DNA from: Cochliopodium minus | Taxonomy: Eukaryota > Discosea > Himatismenida > Cochliopodiidae | NCBI GenBank assembly: GCA_024220525.1 | Contig: JAMYWO010000058.1 | Coordinates: forward strand, 1-36,862 | Direction: 5' to 3' | DNA: 36,862 bases | Shown here: positions 618 through 34,993 of the stretch, one piece after another | Numbering within the stretch: position 1 is the first letter of the stretch | How the letters are laid out: the number at the start of each line of letters is the position of its first letter | Position numbers and translations under genes: made by a program | The notes under the pieces: model-generated | What the model was told of the DNA's origin: nothing | Seen by the model: only the letters and a program-made list of their open reading frames with translations | Database searches by the model: none

Positions 618-2991
618 ATGAGAGGAGATATTAATGTCACAAAAGAAAATCTTTTTGAACATCAAAGTTTGTTGGATTCTCGCGAATATAAAGATACGAA
701 AATAAGGACATCTTGGATTAAATTTGCATTCAGTACCAATTTCAAAATATATTTTTGACGAAAAAAAATCTTGAATCAAATATTAACTATAGATTGATTA
801 AAAGATACTTGATTTTAATACAAATATCTCAAAAATTTATTTTTTCTTTAAATCTCAGTTACATATTTTTGTGCATGTGGTAAAAAATAAAAAAAATATC
901 ATTTCTTTGGAGATTCACAAATTAATTTTTTTTCAAAAAAGGAGGGAGTTTTGGATCAGAGGAACTATTAAATGCTTATCCATTGATTAGTTTTGCTTTT
1001 ATTTTTTCAATACCAATTCTATGGTAAATAATAAATAAAAAAAATTTTAAATAAAAAATGAAAAAATTTAAGATTCATTATAAAACAATTTCTCCATTTT
1101 ATAAAAGGAATTTTCCTATTTCTTTGATGTCTGCTGAATTGGGCCTTGCTATGCCTAACAATGATGGAGTGTTTTTGTGGATAAATGCTGCATTTGGTCA
1201 CGGATTCGCTTTTGTGTAAAAAAATAAAATAAAATATAATAAAAAATGAAAAAATATGATTTATTTAGATCTGCTATTTCTTATTGGGTTAACTACTCAG
1301 TTAGTTCATCAGTCTATTGTATTTTAATCATGAAATATTTGGCTTCTTTTGGTAAAAAGTTTATTAAAAGTTTAAATAAAAATTTTTTTTTAAGAAAATC
1401 TTTTTGCAGACCCAACATATCTTGACACACCCTTTTGGAAATATGGTAAAATAACAATTTTTATATTATTAATTTATATCTTATTTTTTTTTTGATAAAT
1501 TTAAACAAAAGGAATACCTCTTTCTGTGATTTTTATTGTGACTGTAATAAATTTGTTTGGGGTAGATTTTTTAGGATCTATTAGTGGAATTTTAAGTAAA
1601 ATAAAGATTTTTAGTTTTAAAATAAACTTTAAACTTTTTTTTGATAGGTGTGATAACAATAGGACCGTTTATTGTTCTTTTTTTCTTGTCTTTATTCAAA
1701 GGATATATTCACCCAAGTGATTGGTTCATTTTACCTCCAAAAGGATTTTTCCAGAAAGAAAATGGATTAGAACTTTTAATTGTGAGTTTTAATATTGGTA
1801 AAAAAAAAAAAATAAATAAAAAAAATTTTTGGAAATTATTTTAAAATTATTTAACAGCTCTTTGGAGTAATAGTGGGTAAAATTCTTTTTACTTTTTTTT
1901 AAAAATAAACAACTAAATTTTTTAAAAAAGTTATGATGCAGTGGGAAATATGATAGAAGAATTAAAAAATCCCAACAAAAACTTGTTAAAAGCAATGGTA
2001 TTAACTAACATTTCATCTGTTTTTACATACTTTGGTAATTTTTAAAACTTTAATAAAATAATTTATATTTATTTCAAAAATTAATTTCAAAATAAATTTA
2101 AAGTTTCTTTGGTTTCTGTCATTGGTGTAAATAAAAATTATGGATCATGGAAAGCTGGTGATTTTGCTGATTTTGCAGAAATTTTAGGGGGAAAACCTAT
2201 GAAATATATTGTCATTGTAAAGAATTTAATTTATTTATAAATTTTTTTGAAAAAAAAATAAAAAAATAAAAGATGTCTGCCATCTTATCTAATTTTGCTG
2301 TTTGTAATGCTTACATGCTACCTTGTTCAATGTAAAATAAATAACTTTTGCTTTATTTGTGATTTTGTTTAAATTAGGCAACTTTATGGGTAAAAAAAAA
2401 AAATTTTTTAAATTTTTTGTTTTTCTTAAATTATAATTTTTAATAAATAATTTTAGACTTGGAGGAGAACAATATTTGGGTTTATCTTTTCTTAGATACA
2501 AACATCCGAGGTTCCAAACACCTTGGATATCTATTATTATAAATGGTATAGTTTGTGCAATATGTGTCGTAGTTCCCTTTAACCTCTTGGTATCTAAAAA
2601 AAAAATTTAATATTTAATATTTAATATTTAATATTTAATGTTTTTCTTTTTTTAAAATTAAAATTTTTTTTCTTAGGTTAACGTCACAAATGTATATTAT
2701 TGCATCATCATTATCAGTGTTTCTCTTGCTATCTTCGTTTTAAGGTTTTCACAAGTTGGGAGATCATTGAATCGACCATTCAAAGCCACAATAAACAAAA
2801 AAGGGTTATTTCTTATAATTTTGGGACCCATATTGATTAGTTTGTTGGTTATTGTTACTTCTGTTCATGAGAGCTACATCTCCATCGTTTGTGCTTTTGC
2901 TTCATATATTATTTTTTATTTTTTGTTTCTTATATTAAGAAAATTGAGACCTGGAATGAAACCTCTTCTTACAATCAACTACATCAATTGA
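618..2991 (+). CDS. APC-superfamily amino-acid/polyamine permease, copy 1 (15 exons)
   Basis: Spliced model: 618-732, 859-879, 942-1023, 1108-1215, 1269-1351, 1410-1445, 1512-1595, 1648-1797, 1858-1876, 1931-2034, 2104-2216, 2273-2331, 2378-2389, 2457-2589, 2677-2991. All 14 introns are GT-AG, and the 1434 nt are in frame (477 aa). Family hallmarks of LAT/PUT-type APC transporters are visible: CGGSFGSEELL in the broken first membrane helix, then ELGLAMPNNDGVFLWINAAFG, DFLGSISGI and MIEELKNPNKNL. About 11-12 hydrophobic segments follow, so this is an integral membrane transporter, probably for amino acids or polyamines; the substrate cannot be read from sequence. A paralogue lies at 32567-34993. 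Exon 13 is only 12 nt and exon 9 only 19 nt. The start is the first ATG in frame, matching the N-terminal length of the paralogue. Confidence 0.9.
2605..2640. repeat. Short tandem repeat, unit TTTAATA
   Basis: About five consecutive copies of a seven-base unit lie inside intron 14 of permease copy 1. It is simple low-complexity DNA with no sign of function. Confidence 0.8.
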
Positions 2992-3096: not shown

Positions 3097-6000
3097 ATGA
3101 TAAAGACAACAATCTTATTTTCATTGCTATTTTTTTGTCTATTCACCCATCAAAAATTCATCACCTATTTTATAAGTGCAGAAGATATGGTTTGGGATTA
3201 TGCTCCTCAAGGCAAAGATGTGGTGCACAATAATATCACCAATATGTTCAAGATGGTTGCATCAAATGATTATTCAGATACATCTATTGGTAGAAACTAT
3301 ATAAAGTCTATTTATGTGGAATATCAAGATCATAAATTCTTCGACAAGAAGATTGTTGAAGACAAATATAAGCATAAAGGAATTTTAGGACCTATATTGA
3401 GGGCAGAGGTGGGTGATACTTTGCAGGTTGTATTTATGAATAAATTGGATAGAGACGTTAATTTACATCCACATGGTATGAGTTTTTAATTCATAAATCA
3501 TTCATTTAATTTGAAATATTGGATTTTGAAGAAAGATTATATTTTATAACTTCAAATATATCAGACACATGGAAAGAGAAAATATATTTAACCTAAAATT
3601 TTTGACGATATTTATATTACAGTTAGACATGTCCAAAATTTACAACTTTGTTAGCGGATATAAAATTTTTACTAACAAATTTTAAACTGTTGTAAAATTT
3701 TGAACATCTCTATATTACAGTATAACTTTCATTCAAATATATTTGAACTGAACTATAATATATCTCGGGTATATTCAAAATAAATAAAATAAATCCTTGA
3801 AAGATACGAGTTAATTGATCTTGAATTTTCATAACATAAAAATATCTCTTTTCATCAGAATATTACTCAAAAAAAAAATCAAACTTTCATTCATAATCTT
3901 TTCCTCAATTAGGATTGGCTGAGTTCGACAAAAATACTATCGCTTCTGATCCTGTCAAGCCAAAACAAACGAAAACATACATATGGAAAATCTCCAATGA
4001 ACAGGGTCCATCCAACGAAGATCCCACATCTATAGCATGGATCTATCACTCAACAATAAACACAACCACAGGTATAAAATATTTTTTTTATTTATTTTCC
4101 GAATTACAATTAAAAAATTATTTAAATTATTTAAATTTTTAATCTGTTTTTTTTTTAATTTATTTTTAAAACATTTTTTGTTTTTGTTTCAATTTAAACC
4201 TTATTTTTTAAATTTTTTAAAACATTTTACTTTTTTTTTCTTTTTTAGACACCAATTCTGGTTTGATTGGAGCAATTGTTATTACAAAGAAAGGAGCTAG
4301 AAGATCTATTGAAAACCCAATGCCAAAAGACGTCGACAAAGAATTTTTCGCTTTGTTCACTGTTTTCAACGAGAACATCAGTCCTCATATCGACCACAAT
4401 ATTCAAGTTTACACTAAGTCTCCTTCAAAAGTGAACAAAAATGATCCAGAATTCAAACATTGTAAAAAATTTCTTTTATATTTTTTTATTTCTTTTTTTT
4501 TTTACTTTTTATTTTAATTTTATTTAATTATTTTTTTGATTTTTTTATTTTTATATTCATTTTTATTTTTTTAAATATTTTAAATTTTTTTATTTTTCTT
4601 TTTCTTTTAAATATTTTAAATTTCAAAATGTTATATTTTTTTATTTTTTTAAATAGCAAATTTGATGATGGGAATTAATGGTTACTCTTTTGGTAACATT
4701 CCCAATCTTGACATGGACGCAGGAGACAAAGTGAGAATATACTATCTTTCTGTAGGAGACCAATTTGAGGGAACTCACACTCCTTATTGGTACGGACAAA
4801 CTGTGAGGCATTACGGGCATAATTCTGGTAAAAATTTACTATTAAAAAATTTTATGATTTTTTTTTATAAAAATAAAAAGATGTGATAAAAATCCTTCCT
4901 GGATCTACTTCAGTGGTAAAAATTTTTTATTTTTTAAAAATTATTTCACATTATAATACATATTTTTAAATTTTTTTCATTTTTACTTCTTTATTTATAT
5001 TTCTTTTCTTTTTATTAGTTTTATTTTTTAAATTTATTTTTATGTTAAAAAATTATTTTTTTTTTTTTATTTTATTTTATTTATTTTTTTATAAGTAAAA
5101 ATAATTTTATTTTTAGGCAGATATGGTTCCAGACGCAGTTGGAGAATGGCTGATAACTTGCGAAGTAGATCACCACAGTTTGATGGGAATGAATGGATTG
5201 TTTAGAATTCATCCGAACTCTCAGTACGTTCCCGAAACTCTTGATGGAGTGAAAAGAACCTATTTCATTAGTGCTGAGGAAGTCGATTGGGATTATGGTC
5301 CCTCTGGAAAAAATGGATGGACAGGTAAAAAACAAAACAAACAAAACAAAAAATAAAAATTTTTTAATAAAAAAAAATAAAAATGATCAAAAATAATAAT
5401 AAATCATAAATCATAAAAATAAAATAATAAATAATAAATAATAAATAATAAAAATAGTAAAAAATAAAAAATAAAAATTAAAAATAAAAATAATGATTAA
5501 AAATAATAAAAATGAAAATAAAAAATTATTTTCAAATATTAAAAAATGTAAAAATAAAATGAAACAAAAAGAGAAAATAATGAAAATAAAAAGATAAAAA
5601 AATTATAAAAAAATAACGAATAAATAATAAACAATAAAAAGATAAATAAATTAAAATAAAAAAAATCAATAAAAAAATAAATAGGAAAGCCTTTTGAAAG
5701 TGAAATGATGTCTAAAAGAATGATGGTAGAATATTTGGGAAGAATCTACAAAAAAGCGAGATATGTGGAATACACCAACTCTTTTTTCAACGAGACAAAA
5801 AAGAGGGAGAAGGAATGGGAACACATGGGAATCCTTGGTCCCGTCATCAGAGCTCAAGTCGGAGATATTATTGAAGTTTATTTCCGCAATAATTTGAAGT
5901 TTGACTCTTCTATTTTTCCTCATGGTTTGTACATGAGAAAAGATAATGAGGGTGCTGATTATTATGATGGACAAGATAGAGAAGGGGTAGAGCCTGGTAA

Positions 6001-7938
6001 AAAAAAATCAAATTTTTTGTTTTTTTATTTTTTATTTTTATTTCAAATTTTTTATTTCAAAATTTCATTTTTATTTTTATTTTTCATTTTTTTATTTTTT
6101 ATTTTTATTCTATAGGCGACATCAAGAGATATCTTTGGTACGTCCCTAAGAGAAGTGGTCCTTCTGAAAAGGATGACTCCTCCGTTGCTTGGGTTTATCA
6201 TTCTGAAATAGATCACGTCGCACAAACCAATGCAGGTAAAATTAAAATAAAAAATATAAAATAGAAAATATAAAATATAAAATATAAAACATAAAATATA
6301 AAATATAAATATAAAAAATAAAAAATAATTTTTTTTTTCTAATTAGGATTGATTGGAATAATATTGATAACAAAGAAGGGAGAAGCAAAGAGCGAAACAG
6401 AACTCAGACCAAAAGATGTGGACAGAGAACTAATCGTGCTAATGAACGTGTTCGACGAGAACAGATCTACATACCTCAACGAGAACATCCTCAACAAGTA
6501 TGGATCTCTTTCCAAGGTGAACAAGACGAGTCATGCTTTCTTTCATTCCAACTTGATGCATACTATCAATGGATATTGTTTTTCTAATACTGAGGGTTTG
6601 ACTATGAGGCAGGGTGAGAGAGTTAGATGGTATCAAGTAGGAATGGGATCTAGAAATGATATGTAAAAATAATTTTTTTATTTTTTTCTTTAAAAAATTT
6701 TTTATATTTGTTAATTTAATTTATTTTTTTGATTTTTTTAATTTTTATTTTTTTTTATTTTTTTTTATTTTTAAATCTTTTTATTATTTTTTGTTCCATT
6801 TTTATATTTTTTTTCTTTAGACATACTCCTCATTGGCATGGTCAAACCACCATCTCCAATGGGCACAGAGTGGATACTGTACAACTTCTTCCATCATCTA
6901 CTCTCGTAGCAGACATGATACCATACAATCCAGGTAATTTTATTTTTTGATATTTTTATTTTTTTTTATTTTTTTATTTTTTTATATTTTTCTTTTTTTA
7001 TATTTTATTTATTTTTTTTTATTTTTTTTATTTTTTTATTTTTATTTTTATTTTTATTTTTTTTATTTTTTTATATTTTTATTTTTTTATTTTATTTTAT
7101 TTTTTATTACATTTTATTTTATAATTTTTCTTTTTTTTATTTTTTATTTTTAAAAAAAGGAATTTGGGCTTATCATTGTCACGTAAATCATCATATTAAA
7201 ATGGGGATGATCGCACTCTATCAGGTCTCTGCTTCCATCATCCCAGTAAAACCCATCACCAGGACGGGAAGTCTCAGAAAGTATTTTATTGCAGCTGAAG
7301 AGATCACATGGGACTATGCTCCTCAACAAAAAAACGTTATCACTGGTGATCATTTAATAATTATTTCATTTTAGTATTTAAATCAACTATTTTTCCTCCA
7401 CTTTTTAAATTTTTTTAATTTTTGAATATTTATTAAATTTATTAAAAATTTTTTATTTTTTATTTTTTATTTTTTTTTTATTTTTTTTTTTTATATCTTA
7501 TTTTTTTATTTCAAAATTTTAATTTTTTAATTTTTAATTTTTATTTTTTTATTTTTAATTTTAATTTTTTATTAGGCAAAAATTTTGAAACAGAAAACGA
7601 ACTTTTGGTTACAGAACAAACCACAAGATCAATAGGCACAAAGTACCAAAAAGTGTGCTACGTGGAATACACTGACGCTTCTTTCACCAAAAAGAAAGGA
7701 AGGCCAAAGGAATGGCAACATCTTGGCTTTTTGGGTCCTTTGATCAGAGCTCAGGTAGGTGACGAAGTTGAGGTAATTATTTTAATTTTAATCTAATTTT
7801 TTGAAATTAAAATTTATTTTCTTTTTTATTAATTATCTTTTTTTTTCTCTTTTTATTTCTTTTTCATTTTTGTTTTAATTTTTGTTTTATTTTATTTTTT
7901 CAATATTTAATTAATTTTAAATTAATTTATTTTAATTT

Positions 7939-7972
<34 letters not shown>

Positions 7973-9001
7973 TTATTTTTAATTTCAATTTTTATTTTTA
8001 AATTTGAATTGATTTCAAAAAATTTTAATCCAACATATTTTAATTTATTATTTATTATTTATTATTTCATTTTTTAAAATAGGTGGTTTTCAAAAACAAA
8101 CACACATACCCAACATCAATACATCCTCACGGCTTCTTCTACAAAAAAGAAAATGAAGGAGCCCTTTACAACGATGGTGTAAAATTGGAAGACAAACCAG
8201 GAGATTGGGTAGAAGAAGGAAGAATCGTCATTTACAGATGGTTTGTACCTGAAGAATCTGGTATTTAATTTTGTTTATTTTGTTTATTTTTTATTTTTTA
8301 TTTTTATTTTTTTTTTTCTATATTTGAATTAATTTTTTTTTAATTTTTTTTAATTTTTTGATTTATTTTTTGATTTATTTTTTCTTGTTCATTTTTTTTC
8401 TTTTTATTTTTTATTTTTGTTTTATTTTTTATTTTTTTATTGATTTGAATTGATTTAATTTTTGATTTATTTTTTTTTTCTTTTTATTTTTTTAATTTTT
8501 TGATTATTTTTTCTTATTTGTTTTTTTTCTTTTTATTTTAATTTTGTTAATTTTTTGATTTATTTTTTTTTCTTTTTATTTTTAATTTTTTATCTTTTTT
8601 ATTGTTAGGACCTGCTGATAATGATGCCTCTTCCACAGTTTGGATTTATCATTCCCATGCAAATGAAGTGAATAACTCTTCTGCTGGTATGGTTGGTCCT
8701 ATTCTCGTCACTAAAAGAGGTCATTCAAAAACACAAAAAAATAATAAATAAAAAACTAAATAATTCCAAAAAATAAAAAATAATATTAAATCAAAAAATA
8801 AAAAATAAAAAATAAATAAAAATGAAATTATAAAATTAAAAATTAAATTCAAAATTTAATTGGAAATATATTTAAAAAAATACATTTAAAAAGTATGAAT
8901 TTGTTTTTAATTATTTTTTTTTTATTTTAGGAAAAGCAAGATCATCTTCAAATATGAAACCCAAAGATGTTGATGTAGAATTTTTGACCATTTTTATGTA
9001 G
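3097..9001 (+). CDS. Ceruloplasmin/hephaestin-type multicopper oxidase, five cupredoxin domains
   Basis: Spliced model: 3097-3475, 3913-4071, 4249-4461, 4657-4827, 4881-4915, 5117-5324, 5685-5996, 6116-6235, 6347-6662, 6821-6933, 7160-7345, 7576-7772, 8083-8260, 8609-8719, 8931-9001. It is in frame throughout (922 aa). A hydrophobic N-terminus (residues 1-25) is a likely signal peptide, so the enzyme is secreted or lumenal, probably a ferroxidase. Domains 1, 3 and 5 start at FISAEDMVWDYAP, FISAEEVDWDYGP and FIAAEEITWDYAP. Type 1 copper sites are complete in domain 2 (H291, C334, H339, M344) and domain 4 (H639, C682, H687, M692). Trinuclear ligands are complete only across domains 4 and 5 (H642, H644, H681, H683, H817, H819, H877, H879). 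Ceruloplasmin has six domains and about 1050 residues. Here domain 6 is missing, and the last codons (DVEFLTIFM, then TAG) sit on a potential donor AT|GTAGTT, so an intron may have been cut. Confidence 0.9.
3613..3720. mobile_element. 88-bp foldback (MITE-like) insertion candidate flanked by a 10-bp direct repeat
   Basis: Inside the 437-bp first intron of the multicopper oxidase gene, TATATTACAG occurs at 3613-3622 and again at 3711-3720. The 88 bp between them fold back on themselves: the left end AGACATGTCCAAAATTTACA matches the reverse complement of the right end with few mismatches, and the centre pairs TTTGTTAG (3647-3654) with CTAACAAA (3672-3679). Inverted ends plus a flanking direct repeat is the pattern of a small non-autonomous DNA transposon. 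No other copy was noticed in the window, so this is an inference from one locus. Confidence 0.4.
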
Positions 9002-9080
9002 TTTTTATTTTTTTTTTACTTCTTATTTTTTTTATTTTTTATTTTTTTATTTTTCATTAATTTAAATTTTTAATTTATTT

Positions 9081-10255
9081 TCATTTTGAATACTTTGTCA
9101 TTATTTTTTTTTCAATTTTATTTTTTTTACTTGTCAAAACGTTTGTAAATTTGAAACCACAAACAGCAGCAATAATTTCGGGATCAGAATACAACAAGTG
9201 AGGGGATTTTAATTGTTTGACATTTTTTTCCATTCCTAACTGTCCAAAAGTATTCACTTCCCCCATTACAAAAACTTTTCCTCCTTCTAAAAAAAAATGA
9301 TTAAAAAATAAAAAATAATATAAATAAGTAAATAAAAAAAATAAAAAATAATATAAATAAATAAATAAAAATAAAATAAAAATAATTTAAATAAAAAAGA
9401 TTTTACTTTGAAGAAATACAAAGTGATCATCTCCACATGAGAAAGATTCTATGTTTTCCAAGTGTATGTTTACTGGAGCACTATTATCTTTTTTGGTGAA
9501 TATTTTCCCATCAACTAAATAAAAAAATGATAAAATAATAAAAATAATTAAATGATAAAATATTGGAAATATATTAAAAATAAAAAAATAAAAAATAAAA
9601 TAAAAAATTAAAAAATATAAAAAATAAAAATTTCTTTTACGTGTTTCAGTGATGGATATGTCGCTTGATGTTTGAATTCTTTTTACATTTTTGTCCAGTT
9701 TGCAGAATTTGTAAGCGTTGGGTGTTGTATAAAAACTCCTTATGTTGCTACCTACCAAAAAATAAAATGGGTTTAAAAAATGAATTAAAAAAAAAACAAA
9801 TTTTACCACATCCATACAAATCTCCGTTCTATTTAATAAATTATAAATATAAAAATAAAAAATTTTTTATATTTTTTATATTACTCTTTCAATGAAGAAG
9901 GAATGATACATCCCCAGGATTATTGATACTATATTTGGATTATTCATTATCAATACTGGCTGCTTCTGATGGACTTGATCACCTGTGCCCAGCTGTCCAT
10001 GAGAATTGGAACCAAATGCATAGAGATCTCCCTTTTCTAATCATAAATAAAAGGAGGGGTAAAGAAATATCATTATGGAATCAAGATGCCTCATATATGT
10101 TGATATCAAGGTTGATATTGAAAAAGATATCTATTCAATATCCACCTATATAATTTGATATACACATTTTAGATATTTTATAAAAGACCTGTCAAAAACA
10201 TGCAATGTGTTGAAAATGAACTTGTTGAAACCATCCTCATTTTTTATTTGATCAA
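9081..10255 (-). CDS. RCC1-repeat (beta-propeller) protein, fragmentary
   Basis: Exons on the minus strand: 10232-10255, 9885-10036, 9807-9828 (22 nt), 9641-9751, 9407-9514, 9081-9286. The joins I could test keep one frame. RCC1 repeats are clear: GDLYAFGSNSHGQLGTGD, NGDLYGCGSN, SFSCGDDHFVFLQ, VFVMGEVNTFGQLGME and AAVCGFKFTNVLT. RCC1 propellers usually have seven blades (about 400 residues); only about four half- or full repeats (about 200 residues) are present. The first exon with an ATG was not resolved (an ATG at 10352 does not join in phase). The 3' end runs into AT-rich sequence: either the reading stops at 9081 after a lysine-rich tail, or a donor ACAA|GTAAAA at about 9130 leads to exons that are not there. 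The gene faces the truncated multicopper oxidase tail to tail. Role (Ran exchange factor or other RCC1-like scaffold) cannot be assigned. Confidence 0.7.
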
Positions 10256-10737: not shown

Positions 10738-10911
10738 TTATTTTCTAAATATCTTCCTTTTTCCTGGTGGTAGAAATTCTTCATCTGATCTCAGAAAGTT
10801 GTAGATAAGTGGCACATTCTGTTTGCTTCGTCTGTCTTCTCTTATGACGTTTTCTTTACCTAAATCTAATCCATTAGAATCTTTCTTCCTTAAAACAACT
10901 GAATTTCCCAT
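10738..10911 (-). CDS. MGNS micro-protein A, predicted N-myristoylated (57 aa)
   Basis: A single-exon 57-residue frame starting MGNSVVLRKKD and ending GKRKIFRK. Met-Gly-Asn-Ser at the N-terminus fits the eukaryotic N-myristoylation consensus (Gly2 with Ser/Thr/Cys or a small residue near position 5-6), followed by basic residues, which would favour a membrane-facing protein. Its reality is supported by the neighbouring paralogue at 11617-11799, which shares GKENVIRE-like and NFLRSDEEF blocks while the flanking DNA is unrelated. I recognise no known family. Charge is high and there is no transmembrane segment. Confidence 0.65.
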   Translation of the reverse strand: MGNSVVLRKKDSNGLDLGKENVIREDRRSKQNVPLIYNFLRSDEEFLPPGKRKIFRK

Positions 10912-11616
10912 TTTTTTTTCTTAAAGGTAAAATTAGGAGTTTATTTTTTTTTTTTATTTTTAATTTATAATTTTATGTATTCGAATTAATGTTCCCATTT
11001 TTTTAGATTGAATTTGATGATTTTTTAAACTGAATCTCTTGCTTTGATAAGAAAAAAAAATCTTAGAAATTTGATAAAAAAAAAATATATTTCACATTTA
11101 AAGTTTCTTTATTTTGAAGGAAATGTTATTTGAATTCACAGCACCCGAAAAATTCTTAAATTGAGATCAAAACTCATATTTAGATTCTGTATAGGTGATT
11201 TTGTATATATGTAAAGGATTTTTTGATCCAGAGGCTCTTAAGAATTGTGGAGAAGATATAGGTACAAGTTTTGATATTATCCCATTATTTATTTTGCCTA
11301 AGGATAAAAAAAAAAAATTTAAAATTTCAATGAAAAAAATTTCAAATTAAAATAAATAATAATTCTCCTTTTCTAGAGAACAAAATGATATTTCAATCAA
11401 CAAAAATACAAAACTTTAGTTTAAATTGTTTATTTATTTTTCTTAAAAATTTTTTTATGTGTTATTTCACTTTTATATTTTTTGTTAATAAAGAAAGAAA
11501 TAAATCCATAGACCTATTCCAAACCTATTAAATTTTTTTTGTGTATTTTTTTAAAAAAGGGATGATTTGTTTTCCATAAGATGAGAAGTATCCTATTCTC
11601 AAAAAAAAAAAAGAGA
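10912..11616. other. AT-rich spacer between the two micro-protein genes, with one possible orphan exon
   Basis: Mostly A/T homopolymer. At about 11195-11300 both strands are open. Plus strand, after a TATAG acceptor: VILYICKGFFDPEALKNCG and more. Minus strand, after a CTTAG acceptor at about 11303: IISKLVPISSPQFLRASGSK and more. Neither joins to a neighbour that I can identify, so strand and status are unresolved. Confidence 0.3.
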
Positions 11617-11799
11617 TTATTTCACGAATAATGATCTTTTTCCTTGTGGTACAAACTCTTCATCAGATCTAAGAAAGTTGTGGATAAGAGGGCTGTTATG
11701 TTTGCTTGGTTTTTCCTCTCTTATAATGTTTTCTTTTCCACTCTCAAAGGTATATCCGTAGTTCTTTGAATTTCTGTTCATTGAATTTGAATTTCCCAT
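11617..11799 (-). CDS. MGNS micro-protein B, predicted N-myristoylated (60 aa)
   Basis: A single-exon 60-residue frame starting MGNSNSMNRNSKN. It is the tandem paralogue of the protein at 10738-10911, in the same orientation about 700 bp away. Shared blocks in order: GKEN[VI]IRE, SK[QH]N, PLI[YH]NFLRSDEEF, P[PQ]GKR and a final basic-hydrophobic tail. Gly2 after the initiator Met and Ser4 fit N-myristoylation. The N-terminal thirds differ freely while the C-terminal 40 residues are conserved, suggesting that the C-terminal part carries the function. Family unknown. Confidence 0.7.
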   Translation of the reverse strand: MGNSNSMNRNSKNYGYTFESGKENIIREEKPSKHNSPLIHNFLRSDEEFVPQGKRSLFVK

Positions 11800-12155: not shown

Positions 12156-13157
12156 TCAATAACCATGAAATATACCTATATCTATATCAATAATACCATA
12201 CACATCGCCGACAAAATCATATTGGGGATAAAATGAATCAGCTTTCATAAATAAAAGATGATCTCTGAAGTTCCAAAAATCGATGAAAGGATCATCATAA
12301 TGCTCCAAAGAGAAATCCTGCAGATATAACTTTAAATCTTTTAAAGTGATTTCATTTGCACGATCAATATATTCATCCACAATCTTAAATCTGCCCACAT
12401 CAGTGCCTAATATCAAATCTTTTTTTACTTCATTGAATAGATAAGGGTAATCCCTTTCGAAATGTGATTTCCACACTACATTATCACGTGATATTGCATA
12501 CCATTCTTTATTGACCAATCCCATCTTCAATGTATCTTTGGATGATAGCTTATCGAAAATCATTTTGAGAAGAGATTTTCTCAATCCTCCTTTTTCGGGA
12601 AGATTGACCTCGAATGTTACATTTTGAAGGGATGATTTTGCTTCGGGAGTTTTTTGGGGCTTTAATTCTTTGAAAAACAAAATAATGCTTGGAGATTGAA
12701 ATCGATTATGCATTGATTCTTTCTGTGAAAAAATATGAAAATTTAAATTTACTTTGATTAAAATTAATTAAATAATTTTCACTTTTAAATCATCTGATAA
12801 TTTATTCTCCAATGGGGTTGATCTTTTAAATGTGAAAGTTTTTAAAATCAATTTCTTGAAAACAGGATATGAAGCTACTTGTTGATTGACAAAAACATCC
12901 CTCGCAATAATTTCAGGAAGATGATAAATCTGATACAAAATTTAAAACTTTAAAAAAGATTTTAAACACTCTAATATTTTTTTTACTTGAAAATTAGTTT
13001 GGTAATAAGAATCCCAAACAAAGAAGCTAAAAATTTCCGAAATAAATTTTTGTGCAGTCTCTTTGTTTATATTTCCATTTGAAGACAGCCCATCAAATGC
13101 TTTCATTAGAGATTCTTCAGTAATTATGTTTGTGAAGTGTTGTTTAATAATTTCCAT
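12156..13157 (-). CDS. F-box protein (294 aa, 3 exons)
   Basis: Exons 12987-13157, 12783-12929 and 12156-12722 join in phase 0 at both introns and give 294 residues. An F-box is visible at about residues 152-190: LLKMIFDKLSSKDTLKMGL followed by VNKEWYAISRD and NVVWK, the usual L..IF..L...D.L....V...W..I..D...W pattern. F-box proteins are the substrate-recognition subunits of SCF (Skp1-cullin) ubiquitin ligases. Downstream I see no WD40, LRR or Kelch repeats, only a 100-residue acidic-aromatic tail, so the substrate class is unknown. The N-terminal 105 residues have no domain I recognise. ATG 13155-13157 opens the frame. Confidence 0.8.
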
Positions 13158-20717: not shown

Positions 20718-22070
20718 ATGGAAGATAAGAGTATGGATAAATTCAAAAAATTGATTACATTTCCAGCATTGAGACTTCCAGAGAAGATCATATCAGAAGC
20801 CACAAAAAAATTCAAAAATTTTTCGAGCTTCAATCACACAAATATTAAAAATATACAGCCTTGTGATAAAATAGGATACAAGATGTATATATTCGATCAA
20901 AAATATCTCAAAGAAGACAAAAAAATAGAGTTTCCTCAGATAATTGATGAATTCATCGAAGAAAAAAAGGACGTGGAGATAGAGAAGACGACCATAGAGC
21001 TGGAATTGAATCATAAGAACTTCAACATAACAGATTTGATGAAAGAAATCTTGCCAGTTGAATTACACGATAATATACCTACCTCATTTGAAGCAATTGA
21101 TCATATAGCACATTTGAATCTTAGAAGAGAATATGAGCCATACAAGAATCAAATAGCAAATATAATAATGCTTAAAAATCCAAAGATTAAAACAGTTGTT
21201 AACAAAAAAGGATCTATAAATAATGTTTTCAGGACTTTCGAGATGGAATTGTTGGGTGGAGAAGATAGATATGAAGTAAAGTTGTGGGAGAATAAATGTT
21301 GGTTCGAATTCGACTTTAGGAAAGTATATTGGAACAGTAGATTACAAATGGAACATTCAAGATTGATTGATCTGATAAATAAAGATGAAATTGTATGGTA
21401 ATTAACCTTTTTATTAATTTTATCAAAATTACATTCACAACCATCCATTTATAAACATTCTTCATTTCACTATTTATTTATATATAGTGATATGTTTGCT
21501 GGTGTTGGTCCATTTTCTGTTCCATGTGCTAGAAGGAGAAATGCAATAGTATATGCCAATGATCTCAATCCATCATCCTACCAATATCTCGAGAACAATC
21601 GCAAGATCAACAAAATCAAGGATACCCAACTCAAGACCTACAATCTCGATGCAAGAGAATTCCTTGTGAAGATGGCCAAAGAGGGAGTATTGTTCAATTC
21701 TGCTATAATGAATCTCCCAAAGAATGCATTAGAGTTTCTTGATGTGTTCAGGGGTATCTTTAGAGGGAGGGATGATAATATAAAGATGCCCACCATCTAT
21801 TGTTATTGTTTTTCAAATGCGGAAGATCCTGAGAAGGATGCTCTTACTCGCGCAAGCAAATATCTCTCCTTTGATATCTCCACCAATTATCCTGTCACTA
21901 TTGAACGTGTTAGAGATGTTGCTCCAAAGAAATATATGTTGTGTCTCCAATTCTCTTTGCCAAAGGAGGTTGCCTTTGAGAATTTCGATCCTATTTTATC
22001 CAAACGCAAAAATGATCAAAATGATACATTGGATAAGAAAATCAAAGTAGATGATTCTGATGATGATTAG
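20718..22070 (+). CDS. TRM5: tRNA (guanine37-N1)-methyltransferase TRM5
   Basis: Exons 20718-21397 and 21488-22070 join through a split Cys codon and give 420 residues. TRM5 adds a methyl group from S-adenosylmethionine to N1 of G37 beside the anticodon, preventing frameshifting, and in eukaryotes starts wybutosine formation. Motifs: AIDHIAHLNLRREYEPYKNQ, then FRTFEMELLGGED and VYWNSRLQMEHSRL before the SAM-binding loop DMFAGVGPFSVP (residues 228-239). NDLNP follows at the second SAM-contact strand, and MNLPKNALEFLD is the active-site NLP motif. The C-terminus is acidic (DDSDDD). The 5' frame is open upstream of the first ATG but has no other ATG, so 20718 is the start; ATG 20733 is a possible alternative. 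No clear mitochondrial presequence is seen. Confidence 0.95.
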
Positions 22071-25450: not shown

Positions 25451-28400
25451 TCAAAACCAAGTATCCTTCTGGAACCTCTTAGACTTCTCAAGCTGATGTA
25501 AATAGGAAAGTGCCTCGCTTCTTTCAAGACCACCCTTCATGCGAATGATATCAACAATAGAATTCTTGACATCAACCTCCATATGTTTGGCATCCCCACA
25601 AATATAAAGAGAAGCATCCCGATTATGCAAAAGATCCCACAAAAGATCAGCTTCATTTTGCAAGAGATGCTGTACGTAAATTTTTTGATCATTTTTTTCA
25701 CGAGAAAAAGCAGAAAAGAGGGAAATCTTCTTTTGTTCATGTAGATTCTGGAGCCACTCTCCATAGAGAAAGTCCTTGTCTTTGTACCTGCATCCGAAGA
25801 AGAGCACCATATCTCCTGGCGGCTGCTGCTGTGGTGACTGTAGGTGGTCCTTCTTGCTCTTGTGTTGTTGGTGCTCCCAAAGCCTTTGCTGGATAAAACC
25901 CCTGAATGGTGCTATATTCATGTCACACATGCATAAAAAAAAAAAAAAGAAAAGAGTTTAAAGATACGTATTTAAGATTCTATTTTTAATATGATTCTTA
26001 TAAAAAAATATAATATCTTTTAGTATTTCTTTTTTTTTTATGTAAAATGATTTTTTATCATCTTTAATTATCTTTCAAGATTTAATTTATTTTCAATAAA
26101 ATTTATTTCTGTATTTTTTATGTATAAATTTTTTTTTGTTAAATTTATAAACTTTATTTTTTTATTTGATATGTTTATTGTTGTTTTATTATTGTTGTTT
26201 TTGTTGCACAAATTTTTCATTTGTATTTTTTTTTACCGACACCGGTTCCCGGGCCTATCATGCAGATGGGAGAGTTAATGTCCTTGGGTAACCTGAAATC
26301 AGGGTTGTTGTTGACATAAATATTCACTGAGTCACCCTTTTTAACATAGTCGCTCAAAAAAGTGCTTGCCACCCCCACTCTTCCTCTCCCGTGAAGTCTT
26401 TTTTAAGAAAAATAAATGTAAAGTGTGATGAGTAAATATGTAAAAGAAAAATTTCAAATTTTTTTTTTTATTTTTTAAATTTGTTTTATTTTTTAAATTT
26501 GTTTTATTTTTTAAAAATAAAATTTTTAAAATAATTTTTATTTAAAATAAATACTTAAATTAAAATTTTTTTCACATTTTTTATATTTTTTTCTTTACTT
26601 ATATCTCACAACTGCTACAGTGATGGATACCACGTTGGGATTAACTTTGTATGAGCTTGATATTGAGTAGTAGCGAGGAAGCAAAGGTTTGACACTTAAG
26701 TAAAAAAAAAAAGTTCAAAAAACAAAAATTCAAAAATTTGTAAAAAAAAATTCAAAAAAAAATTTCAAAAAAAATTTCAAAAATTACAAAAAAAAAATAT
26801 TTCAAAAAATATTTCAAAAACTATAAAAAAATAAAAAATTTTGTGGGAGATTGAAAAAAAAAAAAACCTCTTTTCCAACAACTTGAGAAGAATTTGAAGA
26901 GAAGAGCTGGGAGGAAGAGTGGAGAGCTTGAGAAGAGTTGAAAAATGTGTCAGTACATCGTGTAGTTCCTTGTCCTCCAAGAAAGAATGGAGCAGTGTAT
27001 TCTCTTTGCCAAATCCTGTGTAAAAAGTTTTTTTATTTTTTTTTTTAATTTAATTATTTTTATTTTTATTATTTATTATTTATTTTTATTTTTTTAATTT
27101 ACCTTTTTCTAGCAATGATGTGAGCTCTTGCTTTTTTTCTTCATAGTTATTAGTTTTAGCGGAGCATTTTTGAGTGTTTGTTTCAATCCATTCAAGTATT
27201 TCTGGTTTAACATTTCTGTAGGGCAAAATTATTTTTTTATTTTTTTATTTTATTTTTACATTTTTTTTTCAAAATTTTTATTTTTATTTTTGATTTTATT
27301 TTATTTATTTTTACAAATTATTTATTTATTTATTTTATTTATTTTTACATTTTTTTTTTCAAAATTTTTATTTTTATTTTTGATTTGATTTTATTTATTT
27401 TTACTTTATATTTTTATTTTTTATATATATTTATTATTTTATTTATTGATATATTTATTTTCATTTTATTTATTTTACCTAAAGTCGTAACACAAGGTGA
27501 TGAGATCGAGAAACTTGATGTGATCCAACTTTGGCTGCATTCTGTTGAAGGACCCGTAGAACCAGTTAGGAGAATCTACCAGCACATTATCACATAAAAG
27601 GTCTTCTACTATTATTTCTTTCATTAAATTATCAAGTAAACTTTTTTTTTAAAAAAAAATTATTATTATTTTTTTATTTTATATTTTTTTTATGTTTTTT
27701 TTTTATTTATTTATTTTTATTTTTTTCATTTTTATTTTTTTTTATTTTTAAAATTTTTTTAAATTTTTATTTTTTTAAACCTATTTTTGTCGATTAGTCC
27801 AAAGAAATCTAGGATCAGTTTTATCTCTTGAGGGTGGTTTCTAGGCAAAACAGCGAGGCTATCTAAGTAAAAGAAAAAGTTAAATGAAAAAAAAAAATAT
27901 TTCATGAGTATCTATAAAAAAAAAAACAAAAAAAATAAAATAAAAAATGAACAAAAAAAAAATCATAAAATTTAAAAAAATATATGCAAAAATGCGAAAC
28001 ATAAATAAAATTACCTCCACATTCGTACGTCATCCCTGAGTTGCTGATGTCAAACTCAATGTGGATGGTCTCCTTGTCGCTTTTCTCGTCAACCAAAGTG
28101 AGAGATTCAACAAGGGAAACTCTGGCAGACAAAGGGTAATCCTATTAATAAAACAAAAAATAAAAAATAAATAAAAAATAAAATAAAATAAATAAAAAAT
28201 AAAATAAAAAGTTTTTTAAAAAATAAATTAAAATTAAATGATATATAAAATTATTGAAATAAAATGAAACAAAATAAAATTAAAATAAAATGATAATTAA
28301 AATAATTAAAATATTGATATAAAAGTAATTTTTTAATTAAATTTTTATTTCAATGAAAATAATTTTTTATTTATCATTTTAATTTTTTTCTTTTTAGTTT

Positions 28401-29576
28401 TTTTTTTTACCTTGCCTATTTTGATGGTCTTCTCTTTGATGAGACCTAGCTTCTGTTTCTCGTAGAGGTAGTCATGCTCGAGCTGCTTAATGGAGGGGGA
28501 GATGCTTCGGAGCTTGTCGATCACTTTGGTCGCCCACTTCTGGATGGCTGTCACTTCTTCCTGGTCTACGTCTACCCTTTCCAAAATTCTCTCGCCTCCC
28601 ATCTTTTCTAATCTTAAAGTAATTTTCAAATTCATTTTTTTTTTGTTTAAATTTATATTATAATTTAAAATTTAAAAGTTTTTTATTATTATTTTTATAT
28701 TATTTTTTTATTTTTCTTACATTTTTTTTATTATTTTTTATTTTTATTTTATAATGTCATTATTTTTATTTTTCTTACTTTATTTTTAAATTTATTTTTT
28801 GATTTAAATTATTTTATATTTCTTACATTATTTTTTATTTTTTATTTTATTTTTGAAAATATATACATTATTTTTCATTTTTATTATTGAAAATTTTTTT
28901 TTTTTTTACAAGGTGTCCATTGTTTTTCCAGCCTTACAATAGAAGGGATAAGAGGAGTCCCCAAGCGCCAAAGTTAAATACTTAATGTGCTTCAAATCAT
29001 ATGGTAAAGTCTCCGCTTTTTCGAAAAAATCTCTTGCAGTCGTTGGAGGTACACCTAATCACGAAATTGGAAAAAAATATTATTTTTTTTTTTTATAATT
29101 TTTCTCTGAAAGATTATAATTTTTTTTTTTTCACCATCTCCAAATGTTGAACATATCACAATTATGATCATCTCCTTATCAAATTCCAGCCAATCATAAT
29201 CTTCCATATTAACACATCTGGGCCAATAATTCTCTTCGCCGAGCTCCTGTAAGATTTTGTCATGCATCATGATGGAGATCTCCTTGGATGCTCCATATTC
29301 AGTGCCATATAGGATCAATATAGTCTTCAGATCAGTTTTCTTGGGATCTTTAAACAATTGTGAATCTTTCTTCACTGCCAATGCTATCTCTTCTTGTGTA
29401 TACTCTTTATATTTCGCCATGGATTGATATGTCCCACCTCCCAACTCATCTTTGCTCAATTTGGGATTGATGGCGCTATAGAGCCAATATGCCGACCCTG
29501 CAATTCCAAATAGCATCAATGCCTTTCGATAGTGAGGTTGGAGGAATTGAGAAAATCTATCAAAATTGCTTTCCAT
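25451..29576 (-). CDS. POR: NADPH-cytochrome P450 reductase (diflavin reductase, 712 aa)
   Basis: Eleven exons: 29135-29576, 28910-29054, 28411-28612, 28015-28141, 27781-27862, 27479-27640, 27103-27215, 26868-27015, 26599-26694, 26237-26397, 25451-25911. They total 2139 nt in one frame. The enzyme passes electrons NADPH-FAD-FMN to P450s on the ER. Residues 18-36 form the N-terminal membrane anchor. FMN domain: YGTEYGAS (90-97), STFGDG (143-148), LALGDSSYP. FAD: RYYSISS (481-487) and RVGVAS (512-517). NADPH: MIGPGTGVAPFRG (552-564), FFGCRYKDKDF and YICGD. The final Trp711-Phe712 provides the ring that shields the flavin; most P450 reductases end W-S. The GTEYG loop replaces the usual GTQTG, and LGDSSYP is closer to NDOR1/Tah18 or sulfite-reductase-type flavodoxins, so a related diflavin reductase is possible, but the anchor favours POR. 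Confidence 0.9.
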
Positions 29577-32566: not shown

Positions 32567-34993
32567 ATGGAAGAGTCTTTTGAATCTGATCCTTTGTCAA
32601 AAATGAAGAGTGAAAAAGAGAAAGTGAGAGTTCATTTCATCAAATTTTCCTTTATTGGTATACTAGCTCTTTCATACACTCTTTTAAAAAATTTATATCT
32701 TATAAATGGGATATATTTGATGCTAATATACTTTTATATTCAAATAATATAAAGTGTATTTTTGTGTATGTGGTAAGAACTTTTATATACAAGTATAATT
32801 AATCCATGAATACTGATAATAATAATAATTATAGGTGGAAGTTTTGGTTCTGAAGAGCTATTAAATGCATATCCATTGATATGTTTTTTATTCATTTTTG
32901 GTATCCCAATCTTTTGGTAAAAAAAAAAAAATTTTTATTCTGTGAAAATATAAAACAATTTAAAAACAATTCTTTTTTAAAAATTCAAATTTTCAATCGA
33001 ATAAGTATTAATAACTTATACTTCCTTTTCTACAAAGGAATTTGCCCATTTCTATGATGACATCTGAATTGGGATTAGCGATGCCCTCGAATGATGGAGT
33101 ATTTACCTGGATTAATGCAGCATTTGGGCAGGCTATCGCATTTATGGCATCTATATCATATTGGATTTACTACATGTAAAAAAATATTTAAATTAGATTC
33201 ATATACCCTGCTATAATTTTAATTAATAAATAAATATTGAAATGGAATTGTAAATACGAATGAAAAAGAAGAATATTACTTGAATTTATAAAAACATTTT
33301 TAAAATCATCTTTTCTTTTAAAGAATAATTTATATTAATAAAAGTTTTTTAAATTTTATTCAAATTTTAAATTTTAAATCCTTGTTTGTTTTTGAATAAT
33401 TTTTTTCTCCATTTACATTCAAATTATTTTTTCCAATTTTTTTTAAAGAGTAAGTGCATCTGTTTATTGCGTACTTTTGTTTCAATACTTAGTCATTGCA
33501 AACCCAGCCGCCTTCAAAAATGATTACATCAAGTACGGAGTACCAATCTTCGTTATCTTAATTGTGATGATTATAAATCTTCTTGGTGCTGATTTTTTGG
33601 GTGCATTGAGTGGTGTCTTTAGTTTTATTACATTATTTCCATTTGTTGTTGTATTTTTTTGGTAAATTTTTTCTTTTTTTTTTTTAAAAATTATTTTTTG
33701 ATTTTTAATTTTCAATGTTTATTTGTTTTTATTTTTGAATTTAATGTTATTTTTTAAAAAATATTTAAAATGTTTTTTTTTTAATTATTATTTTTTTAAT
33801 TTTTCTTTCAGGTCTTTGGCAACACATAATGTACATCCCAGTCAATGGGTTATGTTACCTCCAAAAGGATTTTTCAAAAATGGGGGAATTGACAATCTAA
33901 TAACGGTCTTCAACATTGCTTTGTGGAATAACACTGCGTAAAAAAATTTTGATTAATTTTTTTTTATTATTATTTTATTAATCTATTTTATTTTATTTAT
34001 ACTTTTATTATTTATCTATTTTATTTTATTTTTATTTTTATCTATTTTATTTTATTATTATTTTTTCAAAGATATGACTCTGTTGGATCAATGATCGAAG
34101 AATTGAAAGAACCAAACAAAAACATTGCGAAATCAATGATTTTAACAAACATAGCTTCTGTGTTGACCTACATCGTCACTGTGGTGGGGTTTCTCGGTCT
34201 CAACACAAATTACGCCTTTTGGATCACTGGTGACTTTGCTACTTTCGCAGGACAATTAGGGGGTCCTGGTCTTAAGTATGCTATTGTTGCGTCATCTGTT
34301 GTTGTAAAAAATTATTTTCATTTTTTTTCTTAATTTATATTTTTACTTCCATTAATTATTTTTATTTTTTTTTATTTGGGATTCTTTAAAAATTTTTTAA
34401 TGAAAACTTTTTTTTTTAAAGACGAATTTTGCTGTTGTAAATGCTTACATGTTACCTTGTTCGATGGTATTACTTTTTTTTTATCATTATTTAAAAAATA
34501 AAAGTAGTTCATGTTTAAATTTATTTTTTTTTCTTTGAAGCAACTTTATGGTATTGGGGGAGAACAATACCTCAACATCAAACTCCTTCGCTACAAACAC
34601 CCCAAAACCCAAACGCCCTGGGTCTCCATCTTCGTCAACGCGTTCGTCTGCGCCGTCTGCGTCGTGATTCCCTTCAATTTCCTCGTCTCCGTCACCAACG
34701 TCTTTTATTGTTTCATCATCATCATGATGTCTCTCTCCATGATCGTCTTGAGATTTTCCAAGTATGGAAAGACTTTGAATCGTCCTTTTTTGGCTGCCCG
34801 AAACAACATTGCTGTCATTTTCATTGCCCTTTTGCCCATCGGAATCAGCATGTTCATCTTGGTCACTTCTGTCATGAAGAGTTACATCCCTCTCCTTGTT
34901 GCCCTTGGTTCTTTCGCTTTCTTTTTAATTCTTTACTTTGCTCTCAAACATATCAGACGTTTAAAGGTAACTTCTTATCACTCCATTAATTAA
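32567..34993 (+). CDS. APC-superfamily amino-acid/polyamine permease, copy 2 (9 exons)
   Basis: Spliced model: 32567-32657, 32755-32772 (18 nt), 32835-32916, 33038-33175, 33449-33661, 33812-33937, 34072-34303, 34422-34466, 34541-34993. It is in frame (465 aa). It is the paralogue of 618-2991, with the same motifs CGGSFGSEELL, ELGLAMPSNDGVFTWINAA, LGADFLGALSGVF, MIEELKEPNKNI and GGEQYLNIKLLRYKHP, and about 11-12 membrane segments. The last exon carries, as one uninterrupted block, sequence that copy 1 splits into four exons, and its first third is unusually G+C-rich with C-ending codons. The frame stops at 34991-34993. A donor TTAAAG|GTAACT just upstream could instead splice to a short exon ending at about 35171. 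Confidence 0.9.

Follow-up and report, generated by a model that had tools for sequence, protein, structure and literature searches.

We have analysed a window of 36,862 bases at the start of a 185,954-base contig from a eukaryote genome assembly (44.65 Mb in 598 contigs), in which we found a gene for a ceruloplasmin-like multicopper oxidase. The encoded protein is probably a ceruloplasmin-type enzyme composed of three two-domain units fused in one chain, of which the third is incomplete in the assembly, with its working site at the interface of domains 4 and 5 and with an origin in a triplication separate from the one that gave rise to animal ceruloplasmin. As predicted from the gene model, the protein carries a complete set of trinuclear copper ligands at the 4-5 interface only, beside an intact type 1 site, and this set does not depend on what domain 6 may look like.

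The host genome is AT-rich and rich in introns, and the exon boundaries were picked by hand, keeping to GT-AG junctions and to the reading frame. All 14 introns of the oxidase gene fit GT-AG and the frame crosses the 15 exons without a stop, giving 922 residues if the ATG ahead of the TAG at 8999-9001 is counted (Table 1). Among proteins of solved structure the best match is ceruloplasmin (1e-212), and two Pfam families were detected, Cu-oxidase_3 (5.1e-32, three stretches) and Cu-oxidase_2 (4.2e-22, two stretches). This is the sole ceruloplasmin-like gene that we found in the genome, with searches that scored the best candidates only; the other multicopper oxidases, represented by pieces fetched from contigs 29, 33, 72, 85, and 121, matched the protein weakly (best E 0.002). 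By its hydropathy the N-terminus resembles a signal peptide (residues 6-17 have a mean Kyte-Doolittle value of 2.66), and the oxidase is probably secreted. Since this hydrophobic stretch directly precedes the first cupredoxin domain, and a permease-like frame upstream ends at 2991, ca. 100 bases before the oxidase start codon, the chain very probably begins with domain 1.

In the cupredoxin ring, an even domain forms the trinuclear cluster together with the next odd domain, both in ceruloplasmin and in the two-domain enzymes. The ligands were counted in an alignment with ceruloplasmin domain pairs and bacterial relatives (20 bacterial rows, including L054, L075, and L055). Domain 1 retains three of its four trinuclear ligands, with Thr at the fourth position, while the counts are 0/4 for domain 2, 2/4 for domain 3 and 4/4 for both domain 4 and domain 5. 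Therefore, 4-5 is the only complete interface, 2-3 holding two of the eight ligands and 6-1 at most seven, and a 1-6 site would be incomplete whatever the sequence of domain 6, because domain 1 is without its fourth histidine. Domains 4 and 5 together have all 12 ligands, the type 1 set (H, C, H, M) being joined by HCH to the eight trinuclear histidines. Type 1 sets are complete in domains 2 and 4, and any set in domain 6 would lie beyond the assembled sequence. The geometry of a cluster at 4-5 would follow from homology and from the pseudo-symmetry of the domains. A preliminary description of this DNA had already reported the eight histidines as complete only in domains 4 and 5, with an intact type 1 site in domain 4, and one ligand as lost from domain 1. 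Our alignment agrees on both counts, and everything that had been read in domains 4, 5, 1 (HPHG from 124, IYHST from 170), 3 (FPHG, YHSE), and 2 (HTPYWYG, CEVDH) is correct in the translation. The same description regarded domains 2 and 3 as degenerate, which holds for their trinuclear ligands, mostly lost, but not for the type 1 set of domain 2 (H291, C334, H339, M344), which is complete.

The bacterial relatives come from a scan of a genome collection, in which each of 84,980 prokaryote species is represented by one genome; the scan used two odd-domain patterns that contained no ligand motif. Ten of the 77 pattern matches encode relatives (L049-L058), and each of the ten is a two-domain protein that has a single complete set of 12 ligands (the frame of L050 is over-extended at its 5′ end, and L055, L056, and L057 have C-terminal extensions). 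The 12 ligands of domains 4 and 5 occupy the columns in which every one of these ten relatives has the same 12 ligands, and because the relatives had been found without any ligand motif the match is not due to chance. Sequences beyond these were gathered with a copper-motif filter, leaving only the first ten unbiased for ligand counts. Such relatives are rare, with 2/398 genomes of one phylum and 7/297 of another (E 1e-30, each count including the genome on which the draw was centred), and two scans of viral contigs gave none. In mean identity to 17 bacterial rows, domain 4 (44.7) exceeds domain 2 (40.8), and domain 5 (46.0) exceeds domain 1 (40.2) and, by a small gap, domain 3 (45.1), so domains 4 and 5 are the even and the odd domain closest to the bacterial enzymes. 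Two-domain enzymes need to form homotrimers to be active (PMC3738974), which makes a fused triplet with a single surviving interface chemically sensible. By analogy with those other enzymes, the ten relatives may be trimeric too.

The preliminary description had called the protein a ferroxidase, and one that works together with a ferroportin-like exporter, as ceruloplasmin does, would fit with the overall similarity to ceruloplasmin and with the presence in the genome of a ferroportin-family gene (contig 60, 51,926-53,956, minus strand, six exon matches, best 2.3e-11). In ceruloplasmin, an iron site formed by Glu272, Glu935, His940, and Asp1025 lies beside the type 1 copper of domain 6 (PMC3738974). 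The counterparts in domain 4 of the last three are His599, His604, and His686, that is, only the His940 position is retained; the fourth ligand would come, if the arrangement is analogous, from the missing domain 6. Fe(II) appears doubtful as a substrate because the two carboxylates are His in domain 4, and the sequence does not support the ferroxidase role, which is weakened further by an FTR1 permease having been looked for in the genome and not found. We thus regard a ferroxidase as unlikely. The full Glu/His/Glu/Asp set is retained in 7 of the 20 bacterial rows. As a guess, the His-lined pocket could take another metal ion, e.g., Cu(I).

The gene as assembled encodes five domains and the first residues of a sixth, and its 3′ end is unreliable. 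Similarity stops at VEFLTIF, soon after domain 6 begins, and is followed by an ATG-TAG. A possible donor GT begins at 8998, overlapping the last codon of the oxidase frame, and the 133 bases that follow are intron-like in their composition, resembling the 9 of the 14 introns of this gene that have at least 60% T. On the other side of this stretch, the similarity of a convergent RCC1-type gene seems to end at 9131, again at a possible donor, and its frame read onward reaches a stop at 9081. Because two convergent genes each appear to be cut short of their 3′ end at either edge of one near-homopolymer, we favour a misjoin or a rearrangement breakpoint at 8998-9130 as the likely cause; five domains would then probably be a property of the assembly, the full protein having six. 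A search for a second copy of the RCC1-type region gave 139 matches (40 of 939 candidates scored), none of them near-identical besides the region itself. Most of them fall in its A/T-rich introns, and a few at 71-72% in the exon-bearing parts resemble RCC1 paralogues.

No further piece of domain 6 was detected downstream in the window or its flank with an even-domain profile, and queries of the genome with the complete protein, with two Cu-oxidase families and with a composite of even domains (best candidates scored) gave none that could be assigned. The only lead is an exon on contig 20 (from 118,697, plus strand; L027/L047), located beside a long run of N, that encodes a type 1 end (CQTEQHHDRGM, with the C, H, and M) followed by a hydrophobic stretch similar to a membrane helix. 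It was not assigned as the missing domain 6, as it gave 24.7 bits with the even-domain profile and the terminal part of another oxidase, on contig 121, gave 25.3. The genome assembly contains long runs of N, and missing exons may lie there.

The preliminary description had taken domain 6 to be absent and the enzyme to have five domains. Of this, the lack of a domain 6 in the window stands, while a five-domain protein is not established, the chain stopping inside domain 6 at the T-rich junction. A true five-domain enzyme, encoded by a gene that ends at the TAG and working without domain 6, would be in keeping with the position of this codon directly after the last similar residue, with the exon on contig 20 being the only even-domain-like orphan outside a window that has none for this gene, and with the independence of the 4-5 site from domain 6; the RCC1-type gene might also truly end at its own stop. 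However, such a chain would finish within the first strand of domain 6, and the possible donor over the last codon, the intron-like stretch behind it, the halt of the convergent RCC1-type similarity at the edge of that same stretch and the runs of N that may hold the missing exons make this decidedly unlikely.

The history of the domains was examined in trees of odd domains, even domains and pairs, built with 17 bacterial rows and with rat and human ceruloplasmin (L054 and L075 were left out). The repeats of the window protein group together, with support of 92 (odd), 91 (even), and 99 (pair), and so do those of ceruloplasmin (97, 100, and 99, respectively). Forced pairing of repeats across the two proteins, in three registers, was rejected in all six approximately unbiased (AU) tests with 2,000 resamplings, a number that the program warned was too few. 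With 10,000 resamplings, trees with a shared triplication were rejected in 17 of 18 AU tests, nine of which used six-state recoded data. Besides, in the columns of ceruloplasmin Glu935 and Asp1025 His is confined to the two even domains of the window protein, which fits a change that took place before their duplication. Most likely, a triplication separate from that of animal ceruloplasmin (or gene conversion) fits these sequences better than a shared one, and the earlier idea that the site had moved from its place in a ceruloplasmin-like ancestor loses ground.

Several points weigh against this reconstruction. The one AU test that did not reject a shared triplication (p = 0.107) concerned a register of the recoded even domains, and in the recoded even-domain tree the even domains of the window protein are not monophyletic. 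Support for the window repeats falls to 69 in the recoded pair tree and is 84 in the recoded odd tree. Gene conversion among the repeats is an alternative that would mimic an independent triplication. The relatives in the trees are exclusively animal and bacterial, with no algal Fox or other six-domain sequence from protists among them, and the 3′ end of the oxidase is not established.

The same data bear on a circular permutation, in which a ceruloplasmin or algal Fox gene would have been shifted by one unit, so that the present 4-5 site would be the former 2-3 or 6-1 one. One loop is short both in domain 1 and in ceruloplasmin domain 5, with which domain 1 scores slightly better before ligand masking, and the best ceruloplasmin partners of domains 5 and 4 are domains 3 and 2 (131 and 125 bits, respectively). 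These scores are, however, largely a column effect, as ceruloplasmin domain 2 is the best fit for every even domain of the window protein and ceruloplasmin domain 3 for the odd ones. No register stands out in the full score matrix, and each of the three registers is rejected under the LG model by AU tests on pairs, on odd domains and on even domains, although one of the nine recoded tests does not. We have dropped the permutation on these grounds as highly improbable. Least credible is a chimeric assembly within the gene, which would make the domain numbers wrong and the true site conventional: the 3′ end shows signs of a faulty junction, and intron 1, at 437 bases, exceeds all the others in length and has a lower T content (0.38) than most of them, but none of the 14 junctions breaks the frame or the order of the domains, exon 11 is common to domains 4 and 5, only a single set of these exons turned up in the genome (best candidates scored), and the permease-like frame upstream leaves no space for an extra unit.

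If the protein is indeed a fused triplet working at 4-5, electrons taken from the substrate by the type 1 copper of domain 4 would cross Cys682 to its neighbours His681 and His683, and a trinuclear cluster to which domains 4 and 5 contribute four histidines each would reduce O2 to water. The type 1 site of domain 2 would be limited to storing or relaying electrons. As for its origin, a two-domain unit like those still found singly in bacteria would have been triplicated, most likely independently of animal ceruloplasmin, and the sites at the other interfaces would have decayed afterwards.

Table 1. Features of the oxidase gene and of its 3′ junction (window coordinates; aa, amino acids)
Feature	Coordinates	Strand	Description
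Ceruloplasmin-like multicopper oxidase gene	3097..8997	+	15 exons; translation of 921 aa up to possible splice donor
Exon 1	3097..3475	+	Hydrophobic N-terminus, first half of domain 1; H124, H126
Exon 2	3913..4071	+	Remainder of domain 1 ligand region; IYHST (H172 retained, T174 at fourth ligand position)
Exons 3-6, domain 2 (aa 184-351)	4249..5324	+	Type 1 set H291, C334, H339, M344 complete; trinuclear 0/4
Exons 6-8, domain 3 (from aa 366)	5117..6235	+	Trinuclear 2/4 (H468, H521)
Exons 9-11, domain 4 (aa 533-699)	6347..7345	+	Type 1 H639, C682, H687, M692; trinuclear H642, H644, H681, H683; iron-site columns H599, H604, H686
Exons 11-14, domain 5 (from aa 715)	7160..8719	+	Trinuclear H817, H819, H877, H879
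Exon 15	8931..8997	+	Linker and first residues of domain 6 (...KPKDVDVEFLTIF); similarity ends there
Junction	8998..9130		133 bases, 71% T, 9% GC; possible donors at both edges (8998 on +, RCC1-type gene on -)
RCC1-repeat gene pieces	9131..10040	-	Convergent with the oxidase gene; RCC1 6e-13 and 6.9e-5

Elsewhere in the window, two similar short frames (MGNS..., NFLRSDEEF-P-GKR) lie upstream of the RCC1 pieces, at 10741-10920 and 11617-11799 on the minus strand, and suggest a local duplication. They are followed by a fragment of an F-box protein (12156-12713, minus strand; PF12937/PF00646) and by a TRM5/TYW2 tRNA methyltransferase (21492-22070, plus strand). Two frames on the minus strand look like pieces of an NADPH-dependent diflavin reductase, the one at 25451-25930 matching NAD_binding_1 and the one at 29055-29576 being flavodoxin-like by eye. 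Ends of amino-acid-permease-like genes, possibly paralogues, are found at both ends of the window (2767-2991 and 34511-34993, plus strand); the second frame matches AA_permease_2 and the first was assigned by eye, with an NRPF motif in both.

Among known systems, the protein resembles ceruloplasmin and hephaestin, with which it shares the repeat unit, the domain type and the type 1 sites in even domains, together with the extensive similarity to ceruloplasmin (1e-212). It differs from them in that their trinuclear site is at 1-6 and not at 4-5, domain 1 of the window protein holding three of the four ligands, in that two of the carboxylates of the Glu/His/Asp iron site are His, and in that the repeats of the two do not pair in trees. 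Algal Fox1 and the bacterial MnxG-type oxidases are likewise six-domain multicopper oxidases with the trinuclear site away from 1-6, but theirs is at 2-3 (PMC3600357), where the window protein has two of the eight ligands; this distinction is drawn from their published description. The bacterial two-domain oxidases of ceruloplasmin-like sequence (L049-L058 and their relatives) have the ligand pattern of domains 4 and 5 and are 39-47% identical to domain 3 in the best segment. They have one unit per chain and their cluster would lie between subunits, whereas here at least five domains are fused in one frame-continuous gene model with one complete interface.

A trinuclear site at 4-5 had not been described as of the survey of Vasin et al. 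(2013) (PMC3600357), and our literature search, with subscription papers beyond reach, gave no later report, this survey being the sole paper that combined “multicopper”, “trinuclear” and “domains 4 and 5”. The scheme proposed there starts from a single six-domain ancestor with three trinuclear sites. A 4-5 enzyme fills a gap in this scheme, and the domain trees question its single-ancestor part. Tentatively, and with rather less confidence than in the site itself, we propose that the protein may stand for a further, third class among the six-domain multicopper oxidases, in which three ceruloplasmin-type two-domain units were fused independently in a eukaryotic (probably protist) lineage, with its sole surviving site at 4-5 and with the iron-site carboxylates changed to His before the triplication. 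If true, the ceruloplasmin architecture would have arisen more than once and, together with the 1-6 site of animals and the 2-3 site of algae and bacteria, any of the three equivalent interfaces could be retained. Whether there was one triplication or several, and what decides which interface survives, becomes a testable question, for which the bacterial two-domain relatives offer a ready comparison for the step that preceded fusion.

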